Positions 1,560 to 64,000 of a stretch of 64,000 nucleotides of DNA are shown piece after piece; position 1 is the first letter of the stretch, and every line of letters starts with the position of its first letter. Under the pieces are notes generated by a model that was not told the origin of the DNA, searched no databases, and saw nothing but the letters and a program-made list of their open reading frames with translations. The DNA lies in NCBI GenBank assembly GCA_029834535.1, contig JAQMWT010000670.1, positions 62,001-126,000 of the forward strand. The letters run 5' to 3'. Made by a program: the position numbers and the translations under genes. The stretch comes from Chrysophaeum taylorii (Eukaryota > Sar > Pelagophyceae > Pelagomonadales > Pelagomonadaceae).

Positions 1560-1755
1560 TAGAGATAGAAAATCTGAACTAGGGTTAGTACCCCCTATTC
1601 TAGGGTTAGTTCACTTAACTTTGCCACCTTTTGATTTAAGAAAACGCTGTGTTATTCACACCGGCTGTCCTCGATTAAGAGACAGATTCGAGGACAGACT
1701 ACCACTGTTCTCACGCTCTGCTGAAGGGTAACACAGTTGTGATTACTGTTCTCTA
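1560..1755 (+). repeat. 5' LTR of element A
   Basis: Direct repeat of 10206-10400. It begins TAGAGA and ends TCTCTA, a 6-bp terminal inverted repeat in place of the usual TG...CA. Related LTRs on the minus strand at 50775-51394 share the ends and the tail GATTACTGTT. Confidence 0.88.
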
Positions 1756-4399
1756 GGTATTGGGCACCAGTCCCGGTATCAGCAGAGCCACAGGATTTCC
1801 AGACAAGTCAAGCTCACTGACGTTCCTGAACCCAAGCAAAATGCCGACGACACAAGAACTCCAAAAGGAGATGCGAGAACAAGAAGCTCGCTTAGAAGCA
1901 AGGCATCAAAAGGAGATGCAATACCAAGCTCTAGCGTACGAAGCTCGGCATAAACAAGAGATGCCAGACCAAGAAACTCGCTTGATGGCACAATTCATTG
2001 CCCAATTAAGCGCGCTGGCCACCCAAGTGCAAGCAACGCAAGCACCACCACCTGCCGTCGCTGCTGCGGCTCAACAAGATCCCAAGTCTAAGATCAACAC
2101 CTTTAGTGACCCACCAAGTGCCGTTCTCAAGTCCATGGACTCGGCGCAAGTCACACCTTAAATGCTTTCGTTTCGTGTCATGCAATTATTCGTCGAACAT
2201 CTGATGCCTGAAACAGGTATAACTCAGTACTTCCTACAGGGCTTCTACACGTGGGAATCCGTCCTGCGCGGATCTAACGACCTCGCTGACGCTCTCCTAA
2301 GCCACTGCATCGACGAATACGACAAGTACCCCGACCACCACTCTACCGCCGGGAACACGCCAGATTTCCAAGGCCGTTACGTCTACTACAAGGGTGTCTA
2401 CCGCAAGTTCGGCAGGCACTTCCTGGACAACGTCTACGAGCCAAAACTCCAAGAACTCAAAGATCAATACAAAAACCCAAACGATATAACAAAAGGCAAG
2501 TTATATCCAATCACTCAACCCCATCTCCAAGGAAAAGAAGCCGACTTCATCGTATATCTCCGCGAGACCGTACACCCCCTCTTTCGCCGTTTCCTACATG
2601 CCGGTAGCGACTCCGTCGAGCACCCAGCATACGACGAAGTCGATGCACTCGGATCCTTCTACCCGATAGGACTCGAATTTGTGCTTCAAGTTCGCCTCGC
2701 ACTCGATAAGCATACGGGCCAGAACCACATCCACCATGCGCATTATGTTTACAATGCCTTTCTGGACACGCCGTTCAACCCTGAAATACATGAGCCAGCT
2801 CACTACATCGACTACATGCGTCATGCCCAGCAACAACTCCGCCAGATCACCACGGACACTTCTCTCCAACTTCCTGACGACAAGATCCTCGAAGAAATTC
2901 GCCAAATTCTCCGATTCAAGTAACCCCCAAGCTTGCTTGACTCCCGCGCCCCAACACACATAAAGGGCTTTGCACGTCTTGCTAGCTGTCTGCGCACTCC
3001 CAACGATTCGCTGTTACTCGACGAAGACAAGGACGCCATCCACCACCTTCCTAAGCTCATCGCTCGCATCACCGTCATCTCCACGTTCGAGCGCAACTTT
3101 TGGGCTCACCTCAAGCCTCACCCCACTCTCAACTTCAAGCCTTTGCGCTTCGTCACAGATTTCGGTCGTCTGCCAACAAAGGACAAAGACAACCCCCGTT
3201 TTTGCTCCCGCCGCCATGGTCTCCACCTCACCGAAGACGATGATGACACCTCTCCCTCTGAAGACGACACCCCACCGGACCCCAATGAAGACACCGACCG
3301 CGTCGCTGTTTTTCTCACGGAGGCCCACCTTGACCACGACGAAGACAATGACCTCATTCACCAACTCCACGCCTACCGCAAAAAGCAAATTTCGCGGCAC
3401 CCCAAGAAGCCCCCTCCTAACAAAAAGCCTCCAAATCCTCGCTCCCCGTCTTACTACGACATCAATGACAGTCCTAAGCCCAAGGCCACCCCTGTCACCC
3501 CACCGAAGAACAAGCAACGTCCCCGTGCTACCCTGACAAACGCGAGCACCTGCATCTTCGCAAGGTCACCTTCCCCACAAAACCTCATCCACCCAAACCA
3601 TCTACTCCTGACCAGCGCTTCAAGGTCCTCCTTCGTGAAGTCCGTCGCAAGCTCCAACCATACGGCATCTTAGCCAAGCCGGTCGCAAACATACGTCCAG
3701 CTCCGAGCGCATGAACAAGCTAATCAACCTCATCACCACCATCTCCGACGAGATACTTCTCTCCGAAGCCGAAAACGATGCCGCAGAATTTCTCCAGATG
3801 TTAACGTCCGATCCCCAGGACGATCCACCTGATGAGGGCGAAGCCGAAACCGATGAACAAGATGAAAAAGGACACCTCGGTTTCTATGACGACAACGGTC
3901 AACTAGACCTCTACGACGACACCATTCCCGAAATCAATGATGAAGATGACTCGGCCGAAGACTACGCACAACGGCACAGTGACTATATGCGTGCTCTCCA
4001 CCAGAGTCGGCTTTTTCGCTGATGGTTGCCGACGACGCCTGTGCCGCCAACCACATCTTACTCCATCAGGCACCAAACCTCAAGATGACGAATTTCCCGA
4101 CATCATCAACCATCTCACCCAGAGTCGCAGATTTTCTTTGTGCAACTTACACTCCAGGAAAGACCTCAAAGAAGACTAACTCGCTGCACGGATGCAATGG
4201 ACCCGGCACTGAAACCTCATTGATTGACGGTGGTGCATCTTTTTGCTTTACGCGCACAATATAAAACTTTGTTCCTGAGTCCATACGCCGGATTCCCGAA
4301 CACACTACTCATATGGGACGAGGCACCCTTGCCGGCCACGTCATGGGTGTTAAACCGTTGTATTTGCAGGCTGCAGGTCTCTCCTCCAAGGATACAAAA

Positions 4400-5910
4400 G
4401 ACACAACCGGTTACGCTTTATATCTCGTATTTATGGCCGTCCCGCAATTCAGGCAAAGTCTTCAAGTTATCGCAGCATCTCAGCTCAAAGCTCTGCATGT
4501 ACAAGCCACCGATCCGCCACTGCCCCATGTCAACATCTGAGTGTAATGAAAGAATACGACGGCTATGCCACTCCGGTCACTGCCGACCTTTTCGTCCAAC
4601 AACAAATCCGCTTCGTTCATTGCACGCTCCCGACCTACGCCATTGTCGAGAACGTACGTCCCAACCCCCGAACTCACCACGAGTATGCTAAACTCGCAAA
4701 AGGTTATCAGCGCTTAGGCTACTTCCGCCACTCCGGTGTCTACAATGCCTCTGCTTTTGGTGATGTCATCAGCAAGACACGCTATCTCGCTGTGTATGCC
4801 CGACACCCGCTCACCGGTTACAACCTCGAGAAAACCGCTTCTACTTGGTTAACCTCGCCTCCGAGCATGGTTCCTCTCTTGGACCCCAGTCCCACCATCC
4901 CTGACGATCTCTGGATCGCCAAACCCGCCCTTCGTGGTACAGTGCCCCGCTCCACCTTGGACTACTACCAGCACAAGGCCACCCACTCCTACAAGCCCGC
5001 CAACGCCACGAAACTCTCGATTTCCGAGAATGCCCGCATCTGCCAAATGCTCGCACGCTCCACCAAGCCCTTCACGGATCTCGGTCTAGATGCCGACGGC
5101 ACCCCCTACGCCACAATGGAGTCCATTTCCTACCCCCTGGTTTTCACATTGCTGCACAGTCATTTATCGCAACACCCAACTCTCGCCGCTTGGAACACCC
5201 TCCGCTCTTTTCATGCCACAGAGTCTCAATGTGCTTACCATTTGGATGGAGCCATCACCGGCACCGCCGTTACTGCCGTCGCATGTGGCTACTTCCCGCG
5301 CGCCTCCCTCACACTACATTCCAGGCCCCCTCAGATATTGGACTGTTCCCATCAACCCGCAGTCTTCTCCCCAACGCACCCCTTTTCCCTGGATGTTCCC
5401 AAGGGCACCGCCTTTCTGGTCGTCGCCCACACCACCTCCTTTGCCGCCGCTCACAGCTGCTCGCGCCCGTCCACTTGGGTCTATTATATGAATCGTTCGC
5501 ATCCTGGCTTTGCCACGATCGACTCACGAGGGCGAATTGCTCTCGATGACCCCAAGGGACTCATTATGTCCAAAGCACGTCACACTTACGCGGACTATGT
5601 CGGCCACATCGGAGACACGCTTCAGAAAAGCACCAAGTGTTACTCGGTCACTGGCTCGTACCCAACCAACACGAGCTACTCCAACGCCTTGCTGCTGATC
5701 TCTCCAGACCACATCCGCTATGCGACCCTCAACGAAATCGCAAAGTTTGGACACCACTCGGACCCGGAACTGCTCCGTCTGTTCCAACAGCACCCGCCGT
5801 ACTTCGCGTTTAAGGCACTGGCCAACGCCGTCCCGCACAACATGCTGCAGGCAAAGTACAGCGCTGTTCTCGCACTCCACGAATCGCACCACCACGTGAA
5901 CCTTCACATC
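4400..5910 (+). mobile_element. C5 cytosine methyltransferase-like domain inside element A
   Basis: Family motifs occur in the canonical DNMT order. A motif VI-type segment (AIVENVRP) lies near 4640. A motif VIII-type segment (VYNASAFGDVISKTRYLAV) follows at about 4735-4800, matching the class pattern of an Asn-Ala, a Gly and then basic residues leading into a hydrophobic strand. A long variable region follows, the place of the target-recognition domain. A motif IX-type segment (HIRYATLNEIAKF) and a motif X-type segment (KALANAVPHNML) are at about 5710-5850. Integrase begins about 250 bases downstream. Known family role: transfer of methyl from S-adenosylmethionine to cytosine C5. Retrotransposon-borne DNMTs have been reported in dinoflagellates and charophytes. 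The domain call rests on motif recognition by eye; activity is not implied. The element is a fossil. Confidence 0.82.
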
Positions 5911-8900
5911 GAATGGGCCACGATACGCCATGGCATCCCCAGCCCCGGAGACATCAACCAGGTTGCAGAATTCTTCTCGGCCATCTCCAGCCGTCTCTTA
6001 GCAGAGGAAGACCTGAACCTCACCTCCCTCTTCAATGATGTTGCAGATGCTCACCATGATGCGATCCGCAGACCAAGCAAATCGACAAACCTCGAGACGC
6101 TTCTTGCCGAGGCAGCCGTTGCTAAGATCCGAGTCGACAAGCGACCCAGCCCTCCCAGCGCTTCGACTGCTGCTCTGCCTCCCTTGCACAAGCCCGGCAC
6201 CATTCAGCACGCCAAAAGAGTGCTTTTGGTCACTCCCTGGCACCGCATACACCACCTGCAACAAGAGATTCTTCGCCGCACGATTGCCGCTAATGTAACG
6301 AATCTTCGCCCAGGTGATGATCGGTATCTGCAAGACTGCAGCGAATGCAAGCGCTGTCAATCGCATGTCAGCTTCCGTCACGACAACACTTCCTGGTCAC
6401 CGGATGAACTAGCCTATGCTCCTGGCCAACACCTCCACGTGGATGTATCATACCCAAGCATCAGCAAGTGTTACGGTGGATTACGTTAGATCATGCATTT
6501 CGTGTGTATTATCTCAGCACACAAGTGGGTCTATTTCCTGCGGAAACTAGACGCACAGGATGTTCTGGCCGGCATCCTCTATGTGGTCAATGTGATTAAG
6601 GTCGAATTCGATGTCAGTGTGAAAATCATATCGTCTGATGCATTCTCAACTTTCCGCTCTGAAGCTTTCCACCCCCTCAAGGTGCAACTTGGCATCCAGT
6701 TTCAAATCCTTGGTCGCCACCTCCACCAGCGGAATTTTGCGGAAAACATAATCAAGGAAAACACCCGAGGCACCGTAGTTCGTCTCCTCAACCTTCGCAG
6801 TGTACGCATCGAAGGAAAGTCCATTGCCGCCGAGTATTATCATCCATTTGCTCTCCTGCATAAGATCCAAGCCGACAACCAGCGCTCTCATGGACCGCCC
6901 TCGCGCAAAAAACATGACATGCACCGTTCCCCTGCGTATCATGTCACCCATGGCACCGCTCTTGAAAAAACTTCTCCCCTTTGGCGAACCTGTCACTTTT
7001 GTCTACCCTCAAAGTCACAATCTGGAACCCTCCAGCGTCTCCGCCTCTTACTTTCATCGTAACAACTATCTCCCGAACCTTCCCGGAACGGACCGATTTA
7101 TCCGTGATGTTCTCAGCTCCATCTTGCTTGTACATCACGATACGGAAAAATCGTCACCTCTAACGACTTTCATGTTGACGCAGACATGCCAGTCAACCGT
7201 AACAAGGAGATCGAACGGATCAAAGCACTCGCACAGATCCCAACAGAGGCACGGCAAGAGGACCCGCTACCAGCTATAAGCGAACAGCAAATGCCGGAAG
7301 TTAGACAGGAATCGCAAAGTGAGGGCGAGACTCACGATGACGAGCACGATGATAAACCTAGCGATGACGACGAACACAAAGAACTGGATCCAACTCCCGA
7401 TGCTCATTCAAGTCCCGTCAGCGACGAGACACCTGAACAGGATTTTTCGTTCCTCAACCGGCCACCTCCACCGGATGGTAGCATTCCGATGCCCAAGCGA
7501 AAAGATCGCCTAGAGGTTGTTCTCGACGATTGTTCTCGACGATTCAGGTTTTACTCCAGTTCTCGTGCATCGCAACCAGAGCGATAAGCTCAAAGCAGAT
7601 CTCAAGGACGAACGTGGATTTCGCATCCCTAAGGATCAACTCTATATCGTGAAGCGTGTTGACGATGGAAAACTCTTCACCAGACGCATTATCGCCTCAG
7701 AGTATGGTCGCAACTGGAAATACCAGCAGGAGCAATCCACGGCTCACGCCACAGCCAGCATGTCCGGCACATTGATGTTCCTCATCAGTGTCAGCGCTCT
7801 GTACCAGGGCCACGCCGCCAGCATCGCATCTGACCTCAACATTCGAAGAGATGCTAAGCCGCCTAATGATGTCCCGAAAGGATGTCTCCTAGCATGTACT
7901 ACACAAGACTATGGCATCATGGGCGGCACCGCACTGGATTTGCAGAGAGAAACCTACGCAGAACTCTTGTATGTTGACTTCCCAAGGAAGCCGCACCACT
8001 CATCAGTATTGGTTGACCACCTTGATAATGACAATTCTGTTCTCGAGAACTATGTGTGCCACGACGAACTGTCACCGGCAGAGTACTATGCGCGTCAATG
8101 GAATCAAGAATTCTGTTGTATGGGTTCCTCTCTTTTGTGGGACATCTCCGCGCATCAACACTACCACCTAGCTTCTCGTCACAGGCATGCCTTCATGCAT
8201 GATTCTGACGAACTCGGACACCTCTTCCTAAGTCAAAGTGATCAGAATCAAGATTTATTCTACAAGAAGTCATGGACTATGATTTGATTTCAAAAAAAAA
8301 ATTTTTTTTATATTTCACATCGATCACGTCGTGTTACAGCTCGTGGCCGCTGAAGATATTGTCTATGAGCCTGAAAAGATTGTCGAACTCAAAGGACTCA
8401 GTGAGGAAGATAAGTTAAAGCATATCGCTTCGATTCGCAAAGAAATTGAAGGATTGTGCTCCAATGGTGTCTTCAAGCTTGAGCCTTTACCGCCAGACCG
8501 TTCGTCTATCTCGACGAAACTCGTGCTGAAGATCAAGTATTTTGCTGACGGCACTCCAGACCGCTATAAAGCTCGTCTAGTCGCCCGAGGTTTCTAGGCA
8601 CGTGTAGGCATTGACGTTTGTGCCACATCTTCCCCAACCGCAATGCTCGCCACCAACCGGCCACCGCTCGCCATCGCTGTGAAGCACAAGCTCCCGGTCG
8701 CGCACGCGGACATCCCTCAGGCATTCATCCAATCGGCACTCGATCGCCCAGTATGGATCGACTTCCCTCGAGGAGTACGTGTCTCGCAAAATCTTATCCA
8801 GCAGATACAGAAGAACAATCCAGAGTCGAAGCTCGCTCTTCGACTCGTCAAGGCTCTCTATGGCCTCAAACAGTCAGCTTTGTTGTGGAACATCAAACTC

Positions 8901-10205
8901 GACTCGTTTCTTCGACAACATGAGTTCGAACGCTCACAAGTCGTCACTTGCCTCTATATCAATTGGGATCGATCTATCAACAAATGGGCTTTACTATCCG
9001 TTTCAGTCGATGGCCTATTGATCACTGGTACCAACACTGCCAAAATTACATCTCTTCGCACTGTTCTGGAGAAGGAATATGGCAAAGGTACGTGGCATGA
9101 CAACATCAGATCCTTTCTTGGCATCGATGTTCACTACAATGTCTCCGCTGGTCATCTCACTATGAATGTAGCAGCGAAGATCACCAAGATGCTTGCTGAG
9201 CATAAGCTCAACCTACATAGTCTAGACGTCCCCTACTCGGACATCCTCACTCACAAACCTTCCACAAAACTTCTCTCAGACTAGGCTCGTACTTTAGACG
9301 TATTACGCCAAAATTTTCCTCACTACTGTGGCACTAGCATTTACTTGTCTGTCACATGTCGGCCTGATATCACCACTTTGTGCAACAGATGCTGCAAGGG
9401 CATGCACAACCCCGATCAGACCCACCTTCTGCACTTATATGTTTTACTTCGCTACTTAAAGGGCACTCCGACTGATTCACTCGACTATTCATCCAACAGC
9501 CCCTCTATTACCCCCCTTTATTCAGCATCTGATCAACCGCTATCCTGAACTGCATCACCTTCGTTCACCTATTATTTGTTTCACTGATGCAAGTTTTGCT
9601 GATCGTTCCGACCCTCGCTTGCGATCGAATTCTGGTGCATGTATCTTACGAGTCTTTGGCAATCTCGTATTTTGGTCTAGCAAACGACAAACTCTTACTG
9701 CCAAAAGCACCATGGAAGCTGAGCTCATCGCCGCCAGCGCAGCCGCCGATGAATGTCACTGGTTTTACAAGCTTTTCTCCTCTTACCCTTATCTGTTTTC
9801 ATGTGATTAAGCTCACGCTATCCCCTGCTTTTTGATAACGCTAGCGCATTACATGTCGCTAATCACCCTAAGGTCAGTGCTCCTTCTCGTCATATCAATT
9901 TACGAGAATTTCGCATTCGTAACTACCAAGCTACTTCGATCATTAGACCTCTCTGGTGTCCTACTCACTACCAGGTCGCTGATCATTTTTCAAAGCTCCT
10001 ACCACGCAATTTATTTCACAAGTTCAAAAACTCCTACGGTGTTCACTCCACCTCCTCCTCACCACCATCTCATCAAGTTACTCTTTCAGCTACTCTTCCA
10101 CCGTACGACTCTGTCCAGAACACTCTCTACATTCTTGTCGATGGTAAGACGCTTCCTGCTTAGTTTGATCCAGATTTCGCGCACCGAGTTCAATATGCGA
10201 GGGCG

Positions 10206-10400
10206 TAGAGATAGAAAATCTGATTTAGGGTTAGTACCCCCATTCTAGGGTTAGCTCCCTTAACTTTGCCACCCTTTGATTTAAGAAAACGCTGTATTAT
10301 TCACACCGGCTGTCCTCGTTTAGGAGACAGATTCGAGGACAGACTACCACTGTTCTCACGCTCTGCTGAAGGGTAACACAGTCGCGATTACTGTTTTCTA
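10206..10400 (+). repeat. 3' LTR of element A
   Basis: Direct repeat of 1560-1755, about 94% identical by eye, preceded by a GAGGGCG purine run that may be the polypurine tract. The same GCGAGGGCG context precedes the related minus-strand LTR ending at 51162. Confidence 0.88.
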
Positions 10401-12455
10401 GTAATGTTCCCCAGCAAGACTATCTCAAGCAGTTCGGTTCTGTGTGTTGTTTGCTTTTAGAATCCAATGAGTGCCATAAATACGAACCCCGGTGTCGACC
10501 TTACATCGATTTATGTGGCGCTAATGCTATTAATCCGCTCGTCACCCCGCACGTTAACCACTTAGCTGATGTTGTTCTTAACCCGGAAAACGGTCAAGTC
10601 CGTGTTTCCTCTAAACTCACCTTTCCCTACTTGACTCCTAAACATCCTCCTGACTATGAGCACTCCCCTCCTCCAGCACCTTCCCCTGAAGTGCCCTTTT
10701 CTGTTCAAAGCACCCCCAGTGATGCGTTGCAGAGGGGGTCTGCTGTGTCTTCTGACACTGAACACGAGAGGGGGACTACCTCAGCTCCTGCACGAGCTCC
10801 AGCTTCTTCAGCTCCAGCCCCCGCCTCTGCTGCCCCAGTCGCCTCACCTACAACGTCTGACCTTTCAAAAAATGCTCTGCCTATCCTGCAGACATTTCGT
10901 GAACTATTCTCTCAAGATGCTATCCGCCTCACCCAAGGTCCTAATAAACCCCAGGCCCGGCGCAAGACCAATCTCAAAGCTGTCCAAGCTCGCCTTGTCT
11001 GACCCACTATTCGCGCTTATAAACGCGCAGGTGGCACTTTGGCCGACTTTAAGTATGACGCCACCAAGCGCTACTTAACTTTCTATGACCCCACCCTCCA
11101 CTCCCTCCACACCAGTAATGGCATCCACTGGCAGTCTCTACTTCCAGAGGGGGAGTTCTCCACACCTCTCCACCATCATGTACATCAACTCCTTTCGCAA
11201 GCTCCTCGCTCACTTCCTGATTATTCTCGTGATGTGGACACGAGCACGTACACACTCCCGTCCTCTGCCCTTCCTGTTCACCTAATCGACACCTCCAGCC
11301 TCGAGGATCTCCACTTGCCTCGTGCTCTCGTTCATACGATTCCGATCACGTTCAGGCATTTCAAGTGCCTACCGATCAATATGCTTATGTACTACTTGCG
11401 CCCCACGCTATTATGGCAAACAACGATGCCCCATGTGGTGATTCTGACCCGCCCCTCCCTGACATCGAGGACCACATCACCGTGCAGGCTCACTACATTG
11501 AGTCCTGTCTACATGCTGATCCACTACTCGTTGTTCAACTTGTTGAAGCTCCCGAACCCGATCCCACTAATACGACTACCGAGTCTTACGCCATCACCTA
11601 TCTGATACAAGATCAAGATTCAAGCACTATCGGTCCTGATGAACGTATTGTCGAAGCCAAGGACATCAAGATCGATGAGTATGAGCTGACCTGCCTAAAA
11701 GGTCTTCCAGACTCTGATCGAAAATTCTGCATTGCCGCTACTTCCAAGGCGATCTTCGACATTGTCAAGTTTGGCTGCTTTAAGTTATCGCTGCCGATGG
11801 CTAACTCCAAGTCCATCGACACCAGGCTCGTGTTGCGCATTCAGACAAATGCGTCCGGCGAGTACATCAAGGCAAGGCTGGGTTTCTCGCTTCTCTTGGT
11901 ACTGACTTCTTTATTACGTTTTCGCCTATGGCACAGCTTACAGGTATATGTTGCCTGCTAGTTGTCGCCGCACACCTTCGGTTTCCCGTCTATCATATAG
12001 ACGTACCCAACACTTTTCGTTCAAGCCCCCATCGATTCTCACGTGTACGTCAAGCTCCCGCCAGGCATCTACCTAATGGAGATCCTGACGATGCCAAGTA
12101 CAAGGGACGTCGTCTCGCGAAACTGCTGCGTTCGCTCTGTGGATTACTGCAGAGCCCAGCCCTTTGGAACCAGAAGACCATCAGCGGTTTATTCGATTCG
12201 ATTCTCTTGGCGGCCATCGCTTTCGCACTGACACGTGCATCTGTGGCTGGGTCGTTTAGAATACCAACCCTAAGTATTCAAAACATACTGAGCAGGGTTG
12301 GTATTCTAAACGACCCAGCCACATACATCCATGCTAAAGCCCGTGATGATGCCTCATTTCTTCTGTGCGCCTTATCAGTAGACGACGTGGCCGTCATTTG
12401 CACTTCAGAACAACTTCGACTTGAGTTTCAGAGCGCCATGAAAAGGGAATATATT
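10401..12455 (+). mobile_element. Copia-type element B/C family, right remnant (fossil)
   Basis: Sequence past the 3' LTR of element A resumes as a different Copia family. About 10415-10990 matches the integrase C-terminal part of element C closely (shared NHLADVVLNPENGQ; element C reads DHLADVVLNPENGQ), followed by the same Pro/Ala/Ser-rich linker. About 11740-12455 is the reverse transcriptase start (FGCFKLSLP, ALSVDDVAVI). RNase H is not present. The long-TIR element at 12456 forms the right edge. Broken, about five or more breaks. Confidence 0.8.
12242..12323. repeat. Perfect 30-bp fold-back palindrome
   Basis: Arms 12242-12271 and 12294-12323 are exact reverse complements over 30 bases (TGTGGCTGGGTCGTTTAGAA at the left arm start), around a 22-base loop. 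It lies inside the decayed reverse transcriptase of the B remnant. Perfect arms in old surroundings point to a recent template-switch event or a tiny fold-back insertion. Confidence 0.9.
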
Positions 12456-13112
12456 TTCAAAGCGAAAATTGGAAAGTACAAAGGAGGAACGATATAATAT
12501 TGAATTAATATCGATATTAAATGATATTATTTTTTGGCTCGTTGAAAAAACGTCGTGTTGTTAAGCTGTTCGACTACGAATCGATACACACTGTGTGGCG
12601 GCGGTAACGCCCTTCCCTGCCTCTTGCCTTGAACTTGGAGATGTCACCCTGTCTGCTTTCCCTCCTGGAACCTCACCTGCTTGAGATTCCTATCCACCTC
12701 CCAAACTATTGATTCTAGCTTGAACTCCCCTTTGAACATACTTTTGGCCAAGCTCAATATGTAGGCGCCATGGGCGGGCCTGTGCCTGGATCACTCACGG
12801 TTCGGACATTTTGTAGATCCCGCCGGTCCTACCTAGGGAAGTGGGTGAACTGAGTTTCCGCTAGAGTGGTAGATTACGAAGGATCGCTGGTGATTGATTC
12901 GGACAAAAGGAATCTTCCACGATGGATTGTGGTCGATCAAAGGGGTAGCTTCTTGGTTCATTTCGAACTACAGTTGTAGACTGGGCTGACTTGAGAATAC
13001 TGAACAGCTTAAAACGTTTTTTTATAACGGGCCAAAATGTAATTTCGTTTTGTATCGATATTATTTTAATATTATATCGTTTCGTTTGTATTTTTTCAAT
13101 TTTCGCTTTGAA
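12456..13112. mobile_element. Non-coding DNA transposon with long terminal inverted repeats
   Basis: The ends 12456-12550 and 13019-13112 are imperfect inverted repeats of about 95 bp, roughly 80% alike. Both start TTCAAAGCGAAAATTG and share AT-rich stretches around ATATAATATT and TAATATCGATA, then GGCYCGTT. The 460-bp middle shows no coding potential. Size and structure fit a MITE-like, non-autonomous DNA transposon. No target-site duplication is visible, and the superfamily cannot be given. It abuts the hAT transposase remnant on its right and may be related to it. Confidence 0.72.
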
Positions 13113-14354: not shown

Positions 14355-14450
14355 TGTGAAGAAGCTATGACACTTACCCCTGCACCACGTATCCAGTATC
14401 CTTACGTCTTTCTCTTATCGCTAGTCTAACGCCTCATACCATTCGTAACA
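14355..14450 (+). repeat. 5' LTR of D1
   Basis: 96 bp, TG...CA ends, differing by one base from 19604-19699. Confidence 0.93.
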
Positions 14451-14567
14451 TGGTACCAGGTGTTCCAGGTGTCCAAGGTCGAACGCCCTGAGCTTGACTT
14501 CACGGATAACGGCGACTCCTCCTCGGCTTCAATTCATTGCTACGTGTTCGGTTCGTTATCGTTTATC

Positions 14568-17500
14568 ATGTCCTCGATCGAAATTAAGGATAGCAAGCTT
14601 TCGCAAAAACTCGATGCTTTCAGTGGTGAGCGACATCTTTTTCACCAATGGACCCGACGCCTGGAAAACATGATCATTTCCACCGGTGATCGCATTATCT
14701 TGACCACTGACACTTGGACTAGCATTTCCGCTTCTGGCTGCTCTGAAGAAGAATTTGGTCTCAAGCAGCAACGCTGGTACAGTGCACTCTTCATGGCACT
14801 ACCAATGCATGATACTGATCGTGCGGATATCCGTGAAAACCGCGATATGAACTTCACGCGGCTTTACAAACGCATTACTGATGTTTACATGGGTCATGGA
14901 GATCGTGTCGCTCAGTCTGCAATTGCTTCACTGCATTCCTTGGTGTGCAACAACATCGATGAACTTGAGTCTTTTCTTAACAAGTTCATTACTGGTGTTC
15001 AAGTTGCTCGGCATCATCAAGATTTCCCTGACTCAAGTGCATTGCAGTTGCTTCAAACGAAAATCCCCGACTCGCTCTTGTCTAAGGATCTCATTGCACT
15101 TGATCCTAAATTGCGCACATATGATGGTTTCGTTGATCGCCTCCACAGTAAAGTTTTTGATTATCTTCAGACCAAGTCTGTGCACGTCCATGCTACGTTC
15201 CGTGAAAGTCCCCGTCATCGTGAACGTTCCAACTTTTATGGTCGCCATCCTTCTGAAAAGTATTTTCATCGCTTCAATGCTTTGCGCTCTCAACAACGTT
15301 CTAGCCCACGCCCCTCTTTTCGATCATCATTCCGTCACCCACCTTTATCTTCACGTGGTTTTCATCGCAAGCGCCAACGCCATACTGATCTTTGTCACTT
15401 TTGTGGTATTCCTGGCCATCACCAGAAAGACTGTCATAAGCGTCAGCGCTATTTGCACTCACAAGCTACCGCCCGCCCACGGCATCAACACCAATACCCA
15501 CGTCGGTTGCATTCCCAATACCCACCTCGGTCCACTCCCCAATACCCACCTAGGCCCCATCCACCCTTCTACCAACACCATCTTTTTACCCCCAATCCAC
15601 CCTTGCCACCATCTCAATCCTCTCCGCCGCTTCTTGCGTTGCCACCCTCCACCACACCCTCTGTCCCGCCTTCCACCGCTGTCACCCTTCCTGACCCATC
15701 CCTTTCTGCACCCACCTACCCGTCCTACAATTTCCACCTTCTTTCCATCTCCCCCTCCATTCACCAAGTCCTTTCCTCCACCAACGCCCTTACCGCTCTG
15801 CTCACCGCTCGTGAGCGCGACTACCTTCACAGCACCAACCTTCGTCTCGTTGTCTATGATACCGGCGCCAACGTCAGCCTTTTTAATTCTCCCGCTGGCT
15901 TCACTGACCTGGACAACACTCAACAGCATTCCATCACTTCTGCTATCGGCACTGGCTCTGTTTCTGGTTCTGGCACTGCTCACTTAACGTTCCCTTCAAT
16001 TGGTCCTCTTGACAATCGTGGTCTTCCTTCTCCTGCACCCACTCTTTCCGCCCCTCATGGTATACATGTCGCGTTTCCGCATACCCTCATCTCTCCTGGC
16101 CTTGGTGACAAACGGATTCTTTCGGATCATTCCCTTGAACAAGTTGGTTACGATTGCCACACCATTCAGGCCGTTGATCCTGCTTATCCGCAACGTATTT
16201 TACGTCACCACCAAACGCATCACGTTATTCCCCTGCTTCGTCGCTGTGGTCTTCTTTTGATCGTCTGTTTGATCGGCAATACGACCGCTGCGCCCTACAC
16301 GGACTACGTTTCACATTTTGTGGCATTTTCTTCTTCCCCTCGTGTCCATGATCCTTGTGCGTTTCCCGCTGTGTCTCAACGCACTCAACTCACTTTCGAT
16401 CTTTGGCATGCTCGTCTTGGTCATTATAGTCCTGCCTATATTCGGCGTTTGTCTTCTCTTGCTGTTGGCGCACCGTTTTCCCCGAGCTCCGCGTCGCTTT
16501 CTTTTTGTCCTGCTTGTGCTCTCGGTAAAATGCATGCTGCGCATGTTGGCCAACGTAAAGCTCATGCTTCCACTTCGTCTCCTTCCTCCGAGCCTTTGTC
16601 TCGTCCACGTGCCGTTGCGCCCTGCCTTATTATCCACGCCGATCTCATGTTTGCTGGCGTCCCATCCTACATATATCACGATCGCGCGATCCTCACGTTT
16701 GTCGATGATCATACGCGCCGCCGCACGCGTTACTTTGCTCCACGACACGATGCCCTTACGAACGCTCGACAACTCGAACTTTTTCTGTCTACCGTGGTTC
16801 GCCCATTCGGATATCGCGTTGCCCTCATCTACACTGATCGTGACCGCTCTCTTATGGGCCAATTCGAAACCTTCTGTCTGGGCAACAATATTGCGCTTCG
16901 GCGCGCTCCGGCAGCACAGTCCAAAACTTCACAGGCTCACGCTTTTTCCGGTGTTGTGGAACGCTCTCATCGCGCAACCGCGGATATTACTCGCACTCTT
17001 TTGGTACATGCGCACCGTCCACCTGATTTTTGGCGATGGGCCATGGAAACGGCTGACTTCATCTCTGAGCGTATGCCAAATGCCTCTAATCCTGGATATA
17101 TGACGCCATATGAAATGCTACATGAAACACTCCCGCGTGTCGATTTTCTTCGTGTTTGGGGCTGTCCTGCTGCAATTCTTACTGGCGACAAATGGCCTAC
17201 CAAAGCTATAACCGGTATCTTCATTGGGTATCCCTCTGCAGGCCCTGGATATCGCATATTGCTTCAACGCCCCACAGGTCCTGTCATCCACACCTCGATT
17301 GATGTTGTTTTTGACGAAAATTTCGCTCTGCGTAAGTCACTGTCCACCCAACCCCTTCCTCCGTCTCTCGTGGATTCTCGTTTTCCTGACTTGTTTTATT
17401 ACGACCCTCGTTTATCTTCGGCCGTAAGCCCAATATCTTCTGTTTTTGATGCTCCAGAGCCGGCCTTATCGGGACTGATCACCCCAGCGTCACTGCCCAC

Positions 17501-19891: not shown

Positions 19892-20740
19892 AAGTGCAGG
19901 CCAGTAAGTTCACCTAGTCCCAATCTCTAACCCCAGTAAGTTCACCTGGTCCCAGTAAGTTTCATATAAGTTCACCTGGTCAGTAAGTTCACCTAGCTCA
20001 CACCAACTCCTTTGAGCTCGTCGCTCTCGCCTCCGCCAATCTAAGCTGCTTCGATCCGCACGCGCCGCCAACCTTTGAGTGAGTTTACTCTAAACACCCT
20101 TTGCTCTAAAACCCCAGTATGTTCACCTGGTCCCAGTTTCACCTGGTCACCAAGTGCAGGCCAGTAAGTTCACCTAGTCCCAATCTCTAACCCCAGTAAG
20201 TCTCAACCCCCAGTAAGTTCACCTCAGTAAGTTTCATATAAGTTCACCTGGTCAGTAAGTTCACCTAGCTCACACCAACTCCTTTGAGCTCGTCGCTCTC
20301 GCCTCCGCCAATCTAAGCTGCTTCGATCCGCACGCGCCGCCAACCTTTGAGTGCGTTTACTCTAAACACCCTTCGCTCTAAAACCCCAGTATGTTCACCT
20401 GGTCCCAGTTTCACCTGGTCACCAAGTGCAGGCCAGTAAGTTCACCTAGTCCCAATCTCTAACCCCAGTAAGTTCACCTAATCCCAGTAAGTTTCATATA
20501 AGTTCACCTGGTCAGTAAGTCCACCGAGCTCTAACCAACTCCTTTGAGCTCGTCGCTCTCGCCTCCGCCAATCTAAGCTGCTTTGGTCCGCACGCGCCGC
20601 CAACCTTTGAGTTTACTCTAAAAACCCTTTTTTCTGAAAACCCCAGTATGTTCACCTGGTCACGCAGTCCACCTAGTCCCAATCTCTAACCCCAGTAAGT
20701 TCACGTGGTCCCAGTAAGTTCACCTATAGTGCGCGTGTAG
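19892..20740. repeat. Tandem array of AGTAAGTTCACC-containing units
   Basis: Three long units of about 250 bp, each with several CCAGTAAGTTCACCTRGTCC motifs and a constant GAGCTCGTCGCTCTCGCC core followed by a CCGCACGCGCCGCCAACC block. Similar arrays occur at 32141-32470 and, inverted, 52880-53267, always on the 3' side of the helicase fragment. No coding potential. Confidence 0.88.
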
Positions 20741-21330
20741 ACGCCGGGAGGGGGCTTATCGGCATTGCGCAGCACGTGTGGGGTAGGGCGGAGTCGTCGA
20801 CCCAGAAGAGGATATCCTCGGGGTTGCCGATTGACAGAGAGCCACGTCGAGCTGGACGTGGCAGAAGACGGGCTTCGCCAAGAGGACGCCGACCTCGCGG
20901 GACGTCTGGCCCTGGCTCTTGTTGATCGTTTGGCGTAGGCGGGCCTTAAGCGAAACAGGTTGGAGGAGCCTCGGTGACAACGACGCGATCGATCATGTAT
21001 CTGGTACCGTTGCAGTGGCCGTGCGACGGGTCGAGGTTGCGAAGACATTAAGCTCGCGATCAAAGTCAGCATGCCGTTGGTTGTCAGGGAGTTGAAAACT
21101 CTACTGTAAAGAGCGAGGCGTCGTCTTCCGACCCAGCCTAGTCAGCCGAAAAGAACTCCGACGCCTCGTCTCCGGGAAAAAAAGGCCGCGGTCATGCGCG
21201 CGTTGTCAGCATCGACAACATCGTTTCGACGGGGCGTGAGAATGGCGCGCTGAAAGAGCCGCCGCGGGTCGTGGAAATAGTCTGCGAGGTCGCCGTAGAC
21301 GGCTTGGAGGATCACTGTCTGGCTCTCGCG
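20740..21330 (-). pseudogene. Helitron/PIF1-family helicase C-terminal fragment (copy 1)
   Basis: Reading the minus strand in several frames gives the C-terminal blocks of the PIF1-like helicase of Helitrons: RAILTPRRNDVVDADNARM near 21215, RNLDPSHGHCNGTRYMI near 21015, and QTINKSQGQT followed by a KPVFCHVQLDVAL segment at 20850-20930. These match the family blocks LRNLDP..G.CNGTR and TINKSQGQT..VG..L..PVFSHGQLYVA. Such helicases unwind DNA during rolling-circle transposition. The fragment is broken by frame changes and lacks the Walker A/B half and the Rep domain. Its two sister copies break in partly different places, so all three are non-coding passengers. Confidence 0.82.
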
Positions 21331-21390
21331 CCTACCTGATCCTTACTCTCGCTCCTACATGATCCTTACCCTAAATCGAGGGACAAACTT

Positions 21391-57525: not shown

Positions 57526-57595
57526 GAGCGACACTCACACGACACATACAAAGAAAGAATTGTGGCAAAAGAAGGTAGGGCCAGGGCTAGTTTGC

Positions 57596-57617: not shown

Positions 57618-59502
57618 CTAGGGTTAGGCATCTTCAATCCTGTAAAGGGTTGTCGTCAGAGGCATGATGCATGCCAAGTAGAGAGCAAAAGGTGGAGAAC
57701 TCAGCAGCAAGTGGCTTTGTAAAACCATCCGCCACGTTCAGCTTGCCGGGAACGTGATGGACTCGTATTTTCTGTAGCGAGATGTACTCACTGATTTTAA
57801 ACCATTCGGTCGACAGTGCCTTGGATCGAGAGGACCCATCTGGGTTATTAGAGGTGTGAACAGCGGCAGCATTGTCAGACAAGAGAGGTAGGCATCTGAT
57901 GAAGCGCATATCTTCAGCAATTGGGTTGTCATTGTCATCGAAGTCGACAGGGTCAGCGGTGTTCTCACCATTAGCATTGTTGACGTAGAAGGTGGGGTTG
58001 ACGACAAAGGAGAGTTCCAACAGCAGCTTGCGTAGCCAAACAGCTTCATCAGCACAGATACTGAGGGCAATCAACTCAGCTTCGTGAGTTGAGCAGGAGA
58101 CAATCTGTTGAAGTTTGCTTTTCCAACCAATAAGGCAGTTGAAAAGATAGAAGACAAACCCGGTGGTAGATTTCCTATCTTCCTGTGCTAAGGAAGGGGC
58201 GTTGTCAGCGTCAACCATGGCAACTAAGGGGTCAAACTGTCCAGTAGATACATCCTGCGGTTGGTAGTCGACCACAGTGGATAGATCAATTCGATTAGCG
58301 GAGACAGTGCGAAGGTGAGCTTCAATGGCATTACCTTTAGGATGGAACCAGAGGCGAAGTGAGCGGTTTTCCGGCTTCTTGAGGTAGCGAAGCAAATGCT
58401 CTAGCATTTGGACGTGAACATACGTGGGTGCATGCATACCACGCGAACATCTGCCCAAGGCTTGCGAGAAGTCAGGTCTGCAGGCAACTTGCATGAACAC
58501 CAGCTTGCCAAGGAGGGTGGCAAAGTGCGAATTGATGTACAACTCTGTTTCAGAGCTGGGAGTGCCATCTTTATACTTGAAGGACGATGACATAGGATAT
58601 TTAAGCGGGGTCAGTTGCTGCAAGACTGGGTGATCAGCGAAGAGTTCATCCAGCTTGGCTTGCACATCCAGAGAAATGGAACCGTCAGATGTGCGACACA
58701 CACGCATGCCTAGGAGGGTATGGACAGGTTCAAACTGCTCTACAGCATACCGTTTGTGGAGGGCATCCTGTAACTCGGTACGAAGAGGGTCATCATTGGA
58801 CACAATAACAATGTCGTCTACAGACAGACTGCATACGACGAACTTAGCATGTGCGGATACTCGAGCATATAGGCAAGAGTCCGAATGCAGGCGTTTGTAG
58901 CCAAGGCTACGGAAGAAGCCGTCTATCTCTTTGTTCCAAAGAGATGGTGATTGCCGAAGTCCATAAAGTGACTTCAGCAGTTTCGGTAGACGTCGGCCCT
59001 TGTACTTAGCGTCATCGGGGTCGATAAGCTTGATGCCGTCTGGTAGCTGAACATATACGTTGGCATCAATGTCAGACTGAACGAAGGCGTTCGGGACGTC
59101 TGCATGGTAGACAGGCAATTGCTTGTATGCGGCAATAGCTAGTAGTACCCGGATTGCGGTCATGGTGGCCATGGGGCTGAAGGTGCCAAAGAAATCGGCG
59201 CCAAGAGATGCTAGGAAGCCACGTAGTACGAGGCGAGCCTTGTGCTTAACGTATTTGCCTGCAGAGTCTGTTTTAATCTTCAGCACCATCTTGCTGTCAA
59301 TAGGACGAGAGACACCGTCGGGTAAGGAAAGTTTGAAGCAGCCAAAGCGGATAATGTCGTGGAGTTCCTTGGCGATGGCCTTGAGGTAGGCGTGCCTGTT
59401 TTCAGGCGACAAACCGTGGAGGCACTTAAGTTTATATAGTCAATGAAAACATCAGCTTCTTGGACCTTATATTCGTCAGGACCAACAATGGCTGGTGAAT
59501 TA

Positions 59503-59524
59503 TAGTTTAGCGACGTCGCGGTCG
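59503..59524 (-). repeat. 22-nt motif, copy 3 (integrase/RT linker)
   Basis: Plus-strand TAGTTTAGCGACGTCGCGGT(CG); encodes ATSLNY on the minus strand, between the integrase tail and RT. Confidence 0.8.
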
Positions 59525-61674
59525 AGGCAGTGTGCGCAACTTCGGGATAGGCGGAAACAGCGTCAGTAGGAGTAGTAGGGGCAGATTCCAGTTCCAGTTG
59601 AATATGGATATTAGGGTCGGTGTGTAAGACCTGGGTGATAAACTCTGTAGAGACCAGAAGGTATTCATCCAAGTCAGCCAGAGATGCAGAAGTAGCGCCA
59701 AACTCGGAGGAGTTGTGATCAATAAAGCTGGTCGGTGCCAGGTACGTAAGTGCATATTGTAAGGAAGAAGTGCAAAAGGCAGCAGCGTGTTCAGTGAACG
59801 CAGATAAAAGGGGCTGAGGAATGGGGCACGCAGGTGAACCATCCGCAGTTAAAAAGGTGGCAGCTGGGATGCTGGATGCGCACTTCGCGTGGGCGAAGTA
59901 ACCATCGACGTGCGGGTAGCGGGCAAGTAAGTCAGTGCGCAACGGGAGAAGAAGACGAGCTAACAACGCATGTCCCCCCTCTGAGCAGATAGCAGACCAG
60001 AGGATACCAGCATTGATATGAAGGGCGGAGAGGGCGGGAGACTTGAACGTGAGAAAGTGGTGGCGAAGATCCCAGCGGAAATCGGCGAGTTTGCCACCAG
60101 AGGCTTTGTAAGCACCAATAGTAGACGCTTGTAACCGGGCTCGGATAGTTTTCATAGAAGTGGCCTTGCGGGTGTTGGGCTGTTTGGAACCTGGGACAAG
60201 AATGAGGTCATCTTGTGCAAAAAGATCTTTGTAATAAGGAAGCAAGGGCGGCGGTGACATAGAGCCAGAATCGTCGGCGAGAGTGTTAGAAGAGGGAGAA
60301 GAGGCAGGAGCAGGGGACGAAGAAGGAGCTGAAGGAGGTGGGGCGTGCCCCCTCTGAGGATGAGGAGTCCTTGCCCCCCTCTGAATGACATGGCCTTGGA
60401 TAGCGGTGTGGGGTGTGAGCGAGAAAGGCGCTGGAGGAGCGTGAGGCGGAGGAGCAAGTTCAGGATCAGGAGTAGGATGCTGCAGCATGTAGAGGAATTG
60501 CATCTTGGACGAAACACGAATTTGTCCGTTTTCAGGGTTGAGGACGACGTCAGCGAGATGGTCGACGCGTGGGGAGACGAGCGGGTTTTGTGCGTTGGCG
60601 CAACAGAGATACAGATATTTGCGGCGGCACGGTTCCCACTTGTGGTGTTCATGGGGCTCCAATAGGAGGTAACATTCAGCGCCAAAAATCTTGAGCATAT
60701 CGTGTTGGGGAGTGCTGAGTTGGTTGTAGAGTAGCTGTTGCTAACTCAGAATAGCATGATGAATGCGCTCGAGCGTGGCGTTCGGGAGAAGGTTATAGCT
60801 TTGAACGGTGTGTATCACCGCCCTTGGAAACATGATAGCGGGTTCCACGATCTTGGCGCCACGATAGTGAGCATTAAGGAGAGAACGAAGGCGAGTTGAG
60901 GAGGCGGAGGCGATGAAACCGATGGCAGACTCAACTTCAAAGTTAAAGTGGTGCATGTACGGCGGGAAGGCAATGAGTTGAATGCCCTTATCGACGCGGT
61001 ACGGGGAGGTAATGTGCTGGCTAAAGTAAGGCTTGAATGCATCGGAGTAGAGGGTGCGCATGTGCACGTTGAGTTGTGTACGACAGAAGTCATACACAAA
61101 ATCCAGAGCTTGAGTGAACTCCGTGGCGTTGGTGGTGCATGTAAAGTACACCAAGAGAAATTTCGAAATGAGTTCCTTGAAGACGATGATATGTGTGAAG
61201 CCTCCCCATTCGGATGGGATGGTCACATAGCCGCCGTCGCACGCCCAGACTTCGCCGGCTTTGTGGGTTTGCTCAAAAGAAGGCTTGGTCGCATTGAAAT
61301 GCTTGTGCGGGTGGCGCTTGTTGTGTGCGATGCAGTCGGTGCATAAGTCGCGATATGGTATGTCAGAAGCAGAGAATCCAGGGCGAGCAAGTACGTTGGG
61401 GGCCTTGGCAGCGACGTTGTCGGGGCAGTGATGCACCCGGTGAAAGCGATTAGCACGTTCTTTGGCATTGAGATATTCGGTGGATCCGTGTGCGAGGGAC
61501 TTACGAGGAATGGGATGAGCGGGAATATGCCGTTTGCGCCGAATATCGAACTTGAGTTCGGTGTCTAAGGCAGGGGAAGGCGGTGCGTCGTCATCCTGGT
61601 GCGCAGCAGGGTCACTTAGAGGTGCATCCTCATCATCACGAGTAACGAGAGTATCTTCGTAGGACGAAGATATA

Positions 61675-61696
61675 TAGTTTAACGACATTTCGATCA
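61675..61696 (-). repeat. 22-nt motif, copy 4 (methyltransferase/integrase linker)
   Basis: Plus-strand TAGTTTAACGACATTTCGAT(CA); encodes EMSLNY on the minus strand, between the methyltransferase domain and the integrase zinc head. Confidence 0.8.
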
Positions 61697-61829
61697 AGCA
61701 GTTGCTGGAAATAGACATCATAATAGCTTGTGCCAAAGAAAAGGTATATGTGCTGCACGTGGTGGAAGCTTGATTAATGGTCATGAAATTGGATACATAG
61801 GATTTCTTAGTCACTGCAGCAGTGTGTTG

Positions 61830-63900
61830 GAAGGTAGGGTCCAACACAAGGGGTTTAATATCGGCAACGAGGAGCGAAAGGTGCTTGTACAGAGTGCTGT
61901 ACGTACCGGCAGGCAGAGCATTGCTGAGCATGTCACAGCAAAGGTCATGGTGTAGAGACAAGAGGAAAGATTCCTGTTGTTTGGTGTGGTTGTTAGCACG
62001 AATCAACTCCGGTCGAGTGGGGTAGCGTAATTTCCCGTTGCGAGGGTCGAGTAAAATAATATTGGCATACCCTCGGACGGTGGGCAATGGAGCAAGCATG
62101 GAGTGGATTTTAGAGCCGAGTTTGCGGTCACTTCCACGAAGGTGCCCTATATAGCGACTATGAGATAGGTGGTGATCTTCCAGAATAAAATGAAAATCCT
62201 TGTAATCGAAAGAGTTGTCGGTGGCCTTGTATGTAAGGCAGCCAGGCATCACAAGAGAGCATCTGGACAAGAGTTTTTGTATGGCGGTGCCATAGGTGGC
62301 AGCGGAGCCAACTTGGGGAGGGGCTTGGACTAACTAACTAACTTACTAACTTCAGGCCTCTCCCGAGCATGGGAGCCAGGCCGGACCGGCAGGAGCTGGT
62401 ACGGAATCACAGAGGAAAATCACGCAGTTGGGGCAGGGCGACGGACGAGGACGGACTTGTTAATGGTGGACCGCCACTGCGCGCGGTCTTGTGCGAGGTC
62501 GTGCAAAAGCGTCGCAGGGCGCGGACGTGTTGGTCCACGAAGAATCGACCTGTCTGTCGCGTTCTGCCCAACCGAGCGAACCCCATCCCAGCGCGGACTT
62601 TCCGGGTGCTAACCGGCCAGCCCGGGAGGCGAGCAGGCACCGTCTCACTCCGGGACGGCCGGGGCCGCCGCAGGGAGCAAGCGTGTTAGGCACCGTCCTC
62701 CATCGCAACCAACGGTTAGCGATTGCTTGGACTATCCACAAGTAACCCATAAACGGCTCCAAATATATGGACCTGTCCCGGTCGCGGGGGGTGTCGGAAG
62801 CAGTGAACGTATACGTGCTTCCAAAAGCGTCGATGGGAGTCTAATATTTGGTGGTGGCGTTCTCTATGGTGAGGTTGCCGTCGGAATGGTGGCCACCAGT
62901 TAAGAAGTAGGAGTTGTGTGATGTTGATGAGGTTGTAAGTAATAACCTGTGTGACGGTTGGTTAGTTTCGAAAACGGTAATGTAATAGGACACAGGAGTG
63001 GGTGAGTTAGTGTGTAAGCTGGCAAACAAGTTATAGAGGATTGTAAAAACCTTGACGTGTATAGGGTACGTTGTATTGGGTAGCGGCTCCATAGAGGAGC
63101 GTTTAAAGCACAACTGATGATAAGTACACTCGGATTGAACAGAGTGAGTACGTTGCTCGTGAGCCTGTTGTGAGTGAAGGCGAAGCAGTATCATATTGAG
63201 GGATTCAAGGTCAGCCATAGTACGCTGAGCAGAACCTGTGCGAGAGTAAGGTGCAAAAGTTTTAGGAACGGGGATATATGGAGGATCGGGGAACACCAGA
63301 CACTAGGTTAATTGGTCCAGTAGAATATCTGCGTGCGATGCATATCCATCTTTCTCTAGATTGGTAGTCGCCACAGAGGTAGGTCGGGAGCCTATCAACA
63401 ACATCGACACAGTAATCAAGTGTAGTATGGATAAGTTTGGCCACTGTGATGTGGTCTTGATGACAGTACTTATGTGGAGGCGTCATCTCCGCCAGTAGTA
63501 CCAAGGGCTGGAGCAGCTTGATGACAGACAACATGCTGTCGAAAAGAGAATCGTCCAGCAGGCTTTGTAAGTCTTCTGTCTTATGCTGTTTTAGTAAACT
63601 CCTGTTTGTGCAGGGAGGAGTGATCTCAATTATATCACAATAGAATGTGCGCCTTTCCTCTGGTGAGATTAGGTGAAGATGGTTAATAAAGGCGGGGAGA
63701 GATTCAAATAATAGTACAGTAGGAAAACGGTGGCGTAACATACGAACAAGCGTATCATCAGACTCAACAACAACTTTTATATTGATATTTAAGCCTAAGT
63801 CATTAGTGGCTTGAGACAGGAACGCCGGAGTTGACAAACCAGAACAAAGTAACATGACAGAGGGTTTGAGGAGATTGGACTCTTGTGAGAGAAACACTGG
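61830..63900 (-). mobile_element. C5 cytosine methyltransferase-like domain inside element C
   Basis: DNMT motifs in canonical order on the minus strand: a motif I-type segment (LLCSGLSTPAFLSQA, near 63840), a second acidic strand (VVVESDDTLVRMLRHRFP), a motif IV-type ITPPCTNRS (near 63615), a motif VI-type strand (LQPLVLLAEM, near 63490), a motif VIII-type CGDYQSRERWICIAR (near 63360), and after the variable region a motif IX-type LRYPTRPELIRAN and a motif X-type LSNALPAGT (about 62000-61920). The variable region matches element A in layout (SECTYHQL here, SQCAYHL there). A SINE-like element is inserted in it. Same position relative to integrase as in element A. Fossil; activity not implied. 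Confidence 0.85.
62333..62724 (-). mobile_element. SINE-like retroposon, copy 3 (longest copy)
   Basis: 392 bp, flanked by the exact 10-bp duplication GCTTGGACTA at 62323-62332 and 62725-62734. On the minus strand it starts near AATCGCTAACCGTTGG and ends in a TTAG-type tail. Its middle aligns with the start of copy 1 (GGCCGGTTRGCA), showing that copies 1 and 2 are 5'-truncated. Confidence 0.87.
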
Positions 63901-64000
63901 GCGTGAAAGTAGTCAAGTTAATGGCTGCGTATTTTGCTGAACAAACTTGTTCTGTTTCCGAAGAATGAGAACCAAAGGGCGAATCCACGGGCGATCTGGT

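Follow-up and report, generated by a model that had tools for sequence, protein, structure and literature searches.

The window, the whole 64,000-nt stretch of DNA analysed here, contains a retrotransposon with long terminal repeats (LTRs), element A, alongside other Copia elements and host-like genes. It is best explained as a dead copy from a Copia (Ty1/copia-like) family with many copies, family A, in which pol carries a full C5 cytosine methyltransferase (MTase) between a protease-like part and integrase. The features of element A in the window are as follows.

1560..1756, + strand: 5′ LTR (blastn against 10206-10401, 93.9% identity over 197 columns)
1757..4022, + strand: gag-like region, broken up over several frames (ORFs 1757-2161, 2162-2923, 2924-3673 and 3639-4022; from the ORF list)
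3983..4527, + strand: start of pol in frame +2, with the aspartic-protease-like motif LIDGGAS at about 4214-4240 (tblastn to L009 pol residues 1-182)
4525-4542, + strand: MTase motif IV (PCQ, catalytic Cys)
4527..4528, + strand: deletion junction, 613 bp with MTase motifs I–III lost (L009 4142-4754; best-fit junction scan)
4528..5850, + strand: C5 cytosine methyltransferase remnant (PF00145, dcm, alignment with other copies)
4639-4662, + strand: MTase motif VI, AIVENVRP
4744-4794, + strand: MTase motif VIII, NASAFGD..RYLAV
5719-5748, + strand: MTase motif IX, YATLNEIAKF
5818-5847, + strand: MTase motif X, LANAVPHNML
6292..7059, + strand: integrase region with a stop inside (collinear with L009 pol 975-1230)
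8283..9284, + strand: reverse transcriptase (RVT_2), split over two ORFs (Pfam)
9460..10163, + strand: RNase H-like C-terminal part of pol (by eye, KSTMEAEL)
10206..10401, + strand: 3′ LTR (93.9% identity to 1560-1756)

The LTRs are direct repeats of 196–197 bp each. The 5′ LTR starts with TAGAGAT and ends with TCTCTA(G), TG..CA ends being absent; the left edge TAGAGAT is common to eight of 11 aligned 5′ ends (window copy counted). At the window copy, which alone was compared, the flanks differ (CCTCC vs GTAAT) and no target-site duplication was found. TG..CA ends and a target-site duplication are usual for Copia elements and are not strictly defining. Two telomere-like TAGGGTTAG words lie within the LTR, and most of the aligned 5′ ends retain them. 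Directly after the 5′ LTR, positions 1756-1789 (GGTATTGGGCACCAGTCCCGGTATCAGCAGAGCC) are largely conserved across copies and form a possible primer-binding site.

The gag-like region is collinear, by eye, with the gag-like ORFs of L009 and L010, and the three of its four ORFs that were tested contain no Pfam family at E ≤ 1. The LIDGGAS motif, likewise identified by eye, is conserved in most loci, and the corresponding part of L009 has no match in Pfam. Further downstream, the stretch of L009 pol collinear with the integrase region (975-1230) matches Pfam rve below the cut-off (E = 0.0061, 17.2 bits). RVT_2 was detected at 8598-9281 (E = 1.5e-26) and, below cut-off, at 8283-8594 (E = 0.0029); 9460-9807 gave no Pfam match at E ≤ 1. 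Over the aligned stretches, pol runs through three frames and contains five in-frame stops. With motifs I–III deleted, frameshifts and stops across pol, and gag split as well, the window copy is dead.

A sequence-only reading of this DNA had recognized four cytosine methyltransferase (DNMT) motif strings, VI, VIII, IX and X, in element A. All four are present, in that order, in one open frame (4354-6489, 711 aa); motif IV was absent from its list, and motifs I–III are missing because of the 613-bp deletion. The PF00145 profile search that it had proposed as a check matched the window copy with E = 3.7e-5 (23.8 bits vs a cut-off of 22), and NCBIfam dcm matched 4519-5931 with E = 6.3e-4 (19.5 bits, below the model's cut-off). 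The span given for the domain, 4400..5910, has to be shortened: the MTase begins at about 4528, and the preceding 3983-4527 belongs to the first part of pol and lies in another frame. The domain does lie within a Copia element, with the protease-like motif (by eye) before it and integrase after it, and the accompanying statement that standard Copia elements have nothing at this place agrees with the ordinary Copia family in the window, which has no PF00145 match (14430-19427). The suggestion of a self-methylating element fails for the window copy, which cannot self-methylate because its SAM-binding half is gone and its pol is interrupted; for the family the suggestion is plausible, although CpG sites lack the excess of C/T differences that lasting CpG methylation should leave.

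The 70.8-Mb genome assembly (697 contigs) was scanned for further copies. A six-frame scan with PF00145, in which 123 of 474 candidates were scored, gave 57 matches, all over the cut-off. Of these, L001 and L002 are host-like. Among the other 55, the 17 inspected directly (L003–L018 and the window copy) all align with element pol, and some of the uninspected matches recur in a search with the L009 MTase. That search, with the 601-aa domain as query, returned at least 82 matches of 61–100% identity (73 of 790 candidates scored), several of them fragments of one copy. Fifteen of the 82 cover at least 595 of the 601 residues without a stop (counted by hand from the table), a few of these containing short compensated frameshifts, e.g., L010 and L040. 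L009 itself holds a single 1952-aa frame with a protease-like motif at its start, followed by MTase, rve (residues 1016-1110, 0.0061, below cut-off) and RVT_2 (residues 1686-1933, 1.6e-38). The predicted family A MTase is thus placed between the protease-like part and integrase. The MTase domain is aligned with pol in all 37 loci examined (L027 rearranged). At least 65% of the motif I–II positions are kept in 36 of the 37 (L014 and L046 partial), and the codon for the catalytic Cys is also kept in 36, the exception being L043, which has stops too. In 25 of these loci the MTase domain lies in one frame, which is stop-free in 15. What follows the MTase in the elements is integrase, and not an SNF2 ATPase as in DNMT5.

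Profile comparisons identify the domain as a C5 MTase. Family A sequences tested on PF00145 score from 23.8 to 46.9 bits (cut-off 22); the L009 domain reaches 34.5 bits, and the top score belongs to the motif I–VIII piece of L003. L003 also matches dcm at 3.3e-11 (below the full-length cut-off) and a PHROG DNA methyltransferase at 1.2e-12. Aligned by hhalign against eight prokaryotic and two host MTases, the family A profile reached a probability of 97.9% and an E-value of 6.4e-13, exceeding all 100 column-shuffled controls; the prokaryotic rows had been picked for matching L003, which biases this comparison, and equally the hmmsearch against these MTases and the MTase tree, towards family A. 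The tree, built without DNMT3, left families A and B unplaced, with deep branches unsupported and several branches very long. Searches of the PDB by sequence gave no match for the L009 domain, and none for the L009 RT. A1 had one weak MTase match (E 0.36), and the L003 piece had two unrelated ones (E 0.085 and 1.1). The PDB contains mammalian DNMT3 structures; the ten weak matches of the broader profile A3 were nine M.HhaI entries (E 0.025–0.13) and one other cytosine-specific MTase (0.052), and nothing else.

Family A shares motif order and best profile matches with prokaryotic C5 MTases of the M.HhaI / Dcm type. It differs from them in the ~300 aa between motifs VIII and IX, in the absence of QGFP from motif IX and in being part of a polyprotein. 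Motifs I–II read IIAGGLHQEGF..VVTCEI, motif I departing from the usual DxFxGxGG form, and motif VIII is without QxRxR. In the A3 alignment (rows 66–90% identical to L003), PCQ is invariant and the motif VI Glu nearly so. For these 300 aa, a 2-oxoglutarate dioxygenase suggested by the pattern HLD..H..R was rejected, since Gln replaces the HLD His in L003, L006, L007 and L048 and Pfam found nothing there at E ≤ 5. With the L003 piece as tblastn query, 110 phage and 25 plasmid records were matched, with E 1e-3 at best. Among the 30 matches listed, 23 are annotated as methyltransferase or methylase, and the other seven are unannotated, lack a feature at the matched place, or are labelled ‘hypothetical protein’. 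No relatives outside the genome were found at E 1e-3, 0.01 or 0.1 in protein databases, collections that hardly hold other eukaryotes, and none of 33 pattern matches in viral contigs scanned for MTase relatives was confirmed. In sequence, the family A MTase appears to resemble prokaryotic enzymes more closely than the host's DNMT2 or DNMT5.

Selection was analysed in the 37 loci, from which ten further loci had been dropped beforehand as repeats of included copies; excluded were matching stretches of <60% identity, pairs whose dS was saturated or no higher than 0.15, and those with <80% of positions. Median dN/dS of the MTase, from pairs that are not independent and with post-insertion decay raising the values, was 0.16 for motifs I–VIII (549 pairs), 0.20 for the middle part (453 pairs) and 0.20 for motifs IX–X (396 pairs). 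The corresponding medians were 0.13 for integrase (331 pairs), 0.14 for RT (10 pairs only), 0.23 for the protease part (508 pairs) and 0.22 for the linker (587 pairs). Many related copies keep the MTase under strong purifying selection, which suggests that methylation of DNA (or RNA) plays a part in the life cycle of the element.

A second, very divergent Copia family, family B, probably has the same arrangement, on weaker support. It reaches the right end of the window, and the window also holds a relative of it.

10402..12497, + strand: family B relative, from an SH3-like part to RT (tblastx, blastp; RVT_2 1.4e-8)
57634..64000, − strand: family B, extending past the window end into L049 (RVT_2 2.6e-42; rve 0.003, below cut-off)
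57634-59439, − strand: family B RT ORF
61017-61265, − strand: family B integrase core match
61905-61928, − strand: family B MTase-like motif X
61995-62033, − strand: family B MTase-like motif IX

Motifs I–VIII of family B lie beyond the window, in L049. The L049 ORF matches PF00145 with E = 9.7e-4 (19.1 bits, below the cut-off of 22) and L051 with 12.9 bits, and L050, L052, L053 and L055 gave no PF00145 match at E ≤ 1. PHROG 116, a DNA methyltransferase, matched L049 at 5.3e-4 and L050 at 0.059; NCBIfam had no match on L049. In hhalign, the family B profile aligned with the MTase set at E = 0.0017, with a probability of only 15.5%, above all 300 shuffles and with motifs I, II, IV, VI and VIII in register; in hmmsearch it scored none of ten MTases above shuffled sequences. 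PPC, AEM, QxRxR, RYPTRPEL and LSNALP occur in the expected order. TPPC, AEM and QxRxR are kept in all seven family B rows (A2), including L051 (62%) and L052 (56% identity to L050); motif I is degenerate (MLLCSGLS). Genome-wide, scoring 150 of 952 candidates yielded at least 150 matches to the family, and a 1691-aa pol frame contains MTase (by motif), integrase and RT. For the MTase, dN/dS was obtained for 11 pairs from six of the seven loci (L052 is without the N-terminal part; four further pairs were saturated): six lie at 0.08–0.17 and five at 0.21–0.60, and of these five, four involve the frameshifted L055 and the fifth is the close pair L050–L049. We regard the family B domain as a probable remote C5-MTase.

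Families A and B are related in other parts of pol. Their RTs are 38% identical (141–144 bits for L009), with family C, the ordinary Copia family, further from both (75–91 bits), and integrase comparisons by blastp gave E = 2e-17 for A–B, 0.08 for A–C and 4.6 for B–C. The RT at 10402..12497 matches family B at 58–60% over 109 aa, and no MTase part was seen there. Between the A and B MTases, blastp over the IX–X stretch gave E = 0.005, with RYxT..E....H and L(A/S)NA(V/L)P in common. The profiles aligned by hhalign with E 0.093 at 0.6% and E 0.038 at 1.4%, scores reached by 5 of 300 shuffles. Homology of the two MTases is therefore weak by profile alone and would rest more on the IX–X stretch, the same position and the kinship of RT and integrase. 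With a candidate MTase at the same position in family B, one old capture before the A/B split is the simpler reading, likely and not proven.

Besides these elements, the window contains the following.

14430-19427 and 34417-39302, + strand: ordinary Copia family C, two copies (93–99% alike in the listed segments)
24947-27613, − strand: host-like CLC chloride channel with CBS domain
46038-48326, − strand: host-like H+-pyrophosphatase
53325-54590, + strand: host-like class 3 lipase

Family C, which we used as a control, resembles family A in having RVT_2 and integrase and in sharing the genome; it differs in that it has gag_pre-integrase and no MTase match. A repeat of ~0.7 kb occurs at 20644-21372, 32387-33118 and 52252-52961, two copies direct and one inverted, 93–97% alike in the longer segments and 88–89% in two 101-nt pieces.

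In the six-frame scan with PF00145, only L001 and L002 score higher than the element copies, which reach 46.1 bits at most. L001 (67.1 bits) is a free-standing enzyme, read as a DNMT2-like host gene. It adjoins a chlorophyll-binding protein gene, so the host is probably photosynthetic, perhaps an ochrophyte or a haptophyte. L002 (G000:C621:16962-20237; 61.2 bits) combines DNMT and a partial SNF2 in one 2086-aa frame, with a weak RING match between them, and is read as the host DNMT5. Among the matches inspected there were no host DNMTs beyond the DNMT2-like gene and DNMT5. The genome also has one SRA match and five MBD matches.

We compared the copies for traces of methylation. CpG observed/expected is 1.01 in element A, 1.05–1.07 in the non-DNMT Copia pair, 0.95 in the stretch with family B (53000-64000) and 1.23–1.46 in host gene regions and loci. 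C/T differences among eight A copies amount to 0.083 at CG, 0.086 at CT, 0.062 at CC and 0.053 at CA; the values at CG and CT are 0.111 and 0.108 among six B copies, and 0.048 and 0.057 between two family C copies. Pairwise CpG/non-CpG ratios are 1.04–1.66 for A (11 pairs), 1.02–1.22 for B (four pairs) and 0.98 for the non-DNMT Copia pair. Across A, B and C, there is no clear C/T excess at CpG of the kind left by deamination, which argues against strong lasting CpG methylation of the copies, or for efficient repair.

Starting from the observed domain, its position, the conservation of its motifs, purifying selection and the many copies, we propose a plausible role for the MTase. The enzyme would most likely be cut from the Pol polyprotein, or stay within it, and would be packaged together with RT and integrase. 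If catalytically active on DNA, it would modify nucleic acid of the element itself, most probably its double-stranded cDNA, no later than integration, and this methylation would benefit the element. We give this reading, a Pol-encoded C5 MTase that methylates the element's own nucleic acid to its benefit, a probability of roughly 0.55. Several observations run counter to it: ordinary MTase-free Copia elements thrive in the same genome, motif I is atypical, motif VIII of family A is without QxRxR, C/T differences show no clear excess at CpG, five of the 11 family B pairs have dN/dS of 0.21–0.60, and the family B MTase is remote.

PF00145 includes RNA methyltransferases, e.g., DNMT2, and the lack of a CpG-deamination footprint would also fit an enzyme that, while the element is packaged or reverse-transcribed, acts on RNA, either the genomic RNA of the element or its tRNA primer. 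The authors of a 2018 study raise this possibility for SymbioLINE-Dnmt, and the MTase that they tested left yeast DNA unmethylated (PMC5890265). Nevertheless, the profile matches of family A are to prokaryotic DNA MTases (dcm and, weakly, M.HhaI in nine of the ten listed PDB matches), and its profile scored the host DNMT2, L001, no higher than shuffled sequences; we consider action on RNA possible, if unlikely. Of similar standing is the idea that the transposon enzyme performs de novo methylation which the host DNMT5 then maintains, so that the elements help to write the host methylome. That only L001 and L002 outrank the element copies would fit this idea, and the SRA and MBD matches suggest a genome that reads and maintains 5mC. 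There is also a precedent in Cryptococcus, where the ancestral de novo enzyme has reportedly been lost and DNMT5 acts in maintenance. Against it, a host DNMT3 or DNMT6 that is spliced or divergent could escape an exon-by-exon search of a possibly incomplete assembly, and 17 of the 55 other PF00145 matches were inspected directly.

The divergence of motifs I and VIII, together with the degenerate motif I of family B, could instead point to a non-catalytic passenger kept for nucleic-acid binding, for polyprotein spacing or as a scaffold for protease or integrase. This we find improbable: PCQ is invariant and the motif VI Glu nearly so in A3, the seven family B rows keep TPPC, AEM and QxRxR, and selection is spread across both halves of the MTase. 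The prokaryote-like affinity of the domain is what one would see if a host or bacterial gene had inserted by chance into a single copy. Such an accident has almost no probability left; it is refuted by the multi-copy collinearity, the domain being aligned with pol in 37 of 37 loci and in one open frame with integrase and RT, with a same-place candidate in the second family. A more far-reaching scenario would combine several of these elements: a prokaryote-like C5 MTase captured once by an ancestral Copia before the families split and kept in more than 200 copies, with retrotransposons serving as the de novo methyltransferase and their marks maintained by the host enzyme, in a host with DNMT2 and a maintenance-type DNMT5. 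As a whole we hold this scenario to be doubtful.

DNMTs are known from LINE and DIRS elements of Symbiodinium and a Gypsy element of Klebsormidium, with Ka/Ks mostly below 0.2, and Symbiodinium Copia elements are stated to lack any DNMT domain (de Mendoza et al. 2018, PMC5890265). Family A can be compared with KnitGypsy-Dnmt3 of Klebsormidium nitens, which also has a C5-MTase in the Pol of an LTR retrotransposon, several copies, purifying selection and an algal host; however, KnitGypsy-Dnmt3 is a Gypsy element with a DNMT3-type enzyme, a charophyte host and a DIRS-like repeat arrangement, whereas family A is a Copia element with direct LTRs and a prokaryote-like MTase of a class that the tree does not place. 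SymbioDIRS-Dnmt3 likewise carries an MTase in retrotransposon Pol in many copies, but it is a tyrosine-recombinase DIRS element and its enzyme belongs to the DNMT3 clade. SymbioLINE-Dnmt resembles the families described here as an orphan DNMT lineage on a retrotransposon of high copy number; it differs in being non-LTR, in having the MTase in ORF1 and in being CpG-depleted, which the family A and B copies are not. A later paper (Mol Biol Evol 2025, msaf176; PMC12344493) describes some DNMT3 as embedded in ‘LTR Copia and DIRS’ of streptophytes and dinoflagellates. That wording may be a slip, since the source given is the 2018 paper, where the element is a Gypsy; the statement deals with DNMT3 and with different hosts, and is the sole printed mention of a Copia DNMT that we found.

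Other reports describe pelagophyte and diatom DNMT5 (PMC9998398, PMC3145265), an Ectocarpus Sola element with a ParB-MTase protein (PMC12477816), and Symbiodinium domain counts in passages that mention no fusion (PMC6123633, PMC5670126). The literature searched, with most subscription journals outside its scope and many papers represented in part, yielded no description of a Copia DNMT in a comparable host. Within these bounds, a Copia element carrying an orphan MTase, in a host where only DNMT2 and DNMT5 were found, is not among the known LINE, DIRS and Gypsy cases, and the earlier expectation of novelty is borne out in that the Copia carrier is a new type of element.

For a transposable element to keep a selected methyltransferase is a paradox, because DNA methylation is the usual weapon of the host against transposons. 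The high-copy Copia family described here, and probably a second one as well, in a 70.8-Mb genome and with an MTase unlike the two detected DNMTs of the host, makes a small and tractable system. It allows one to ask what the element gains from the MTase and whether a host with maintenance methylation only relies on that enzyme.
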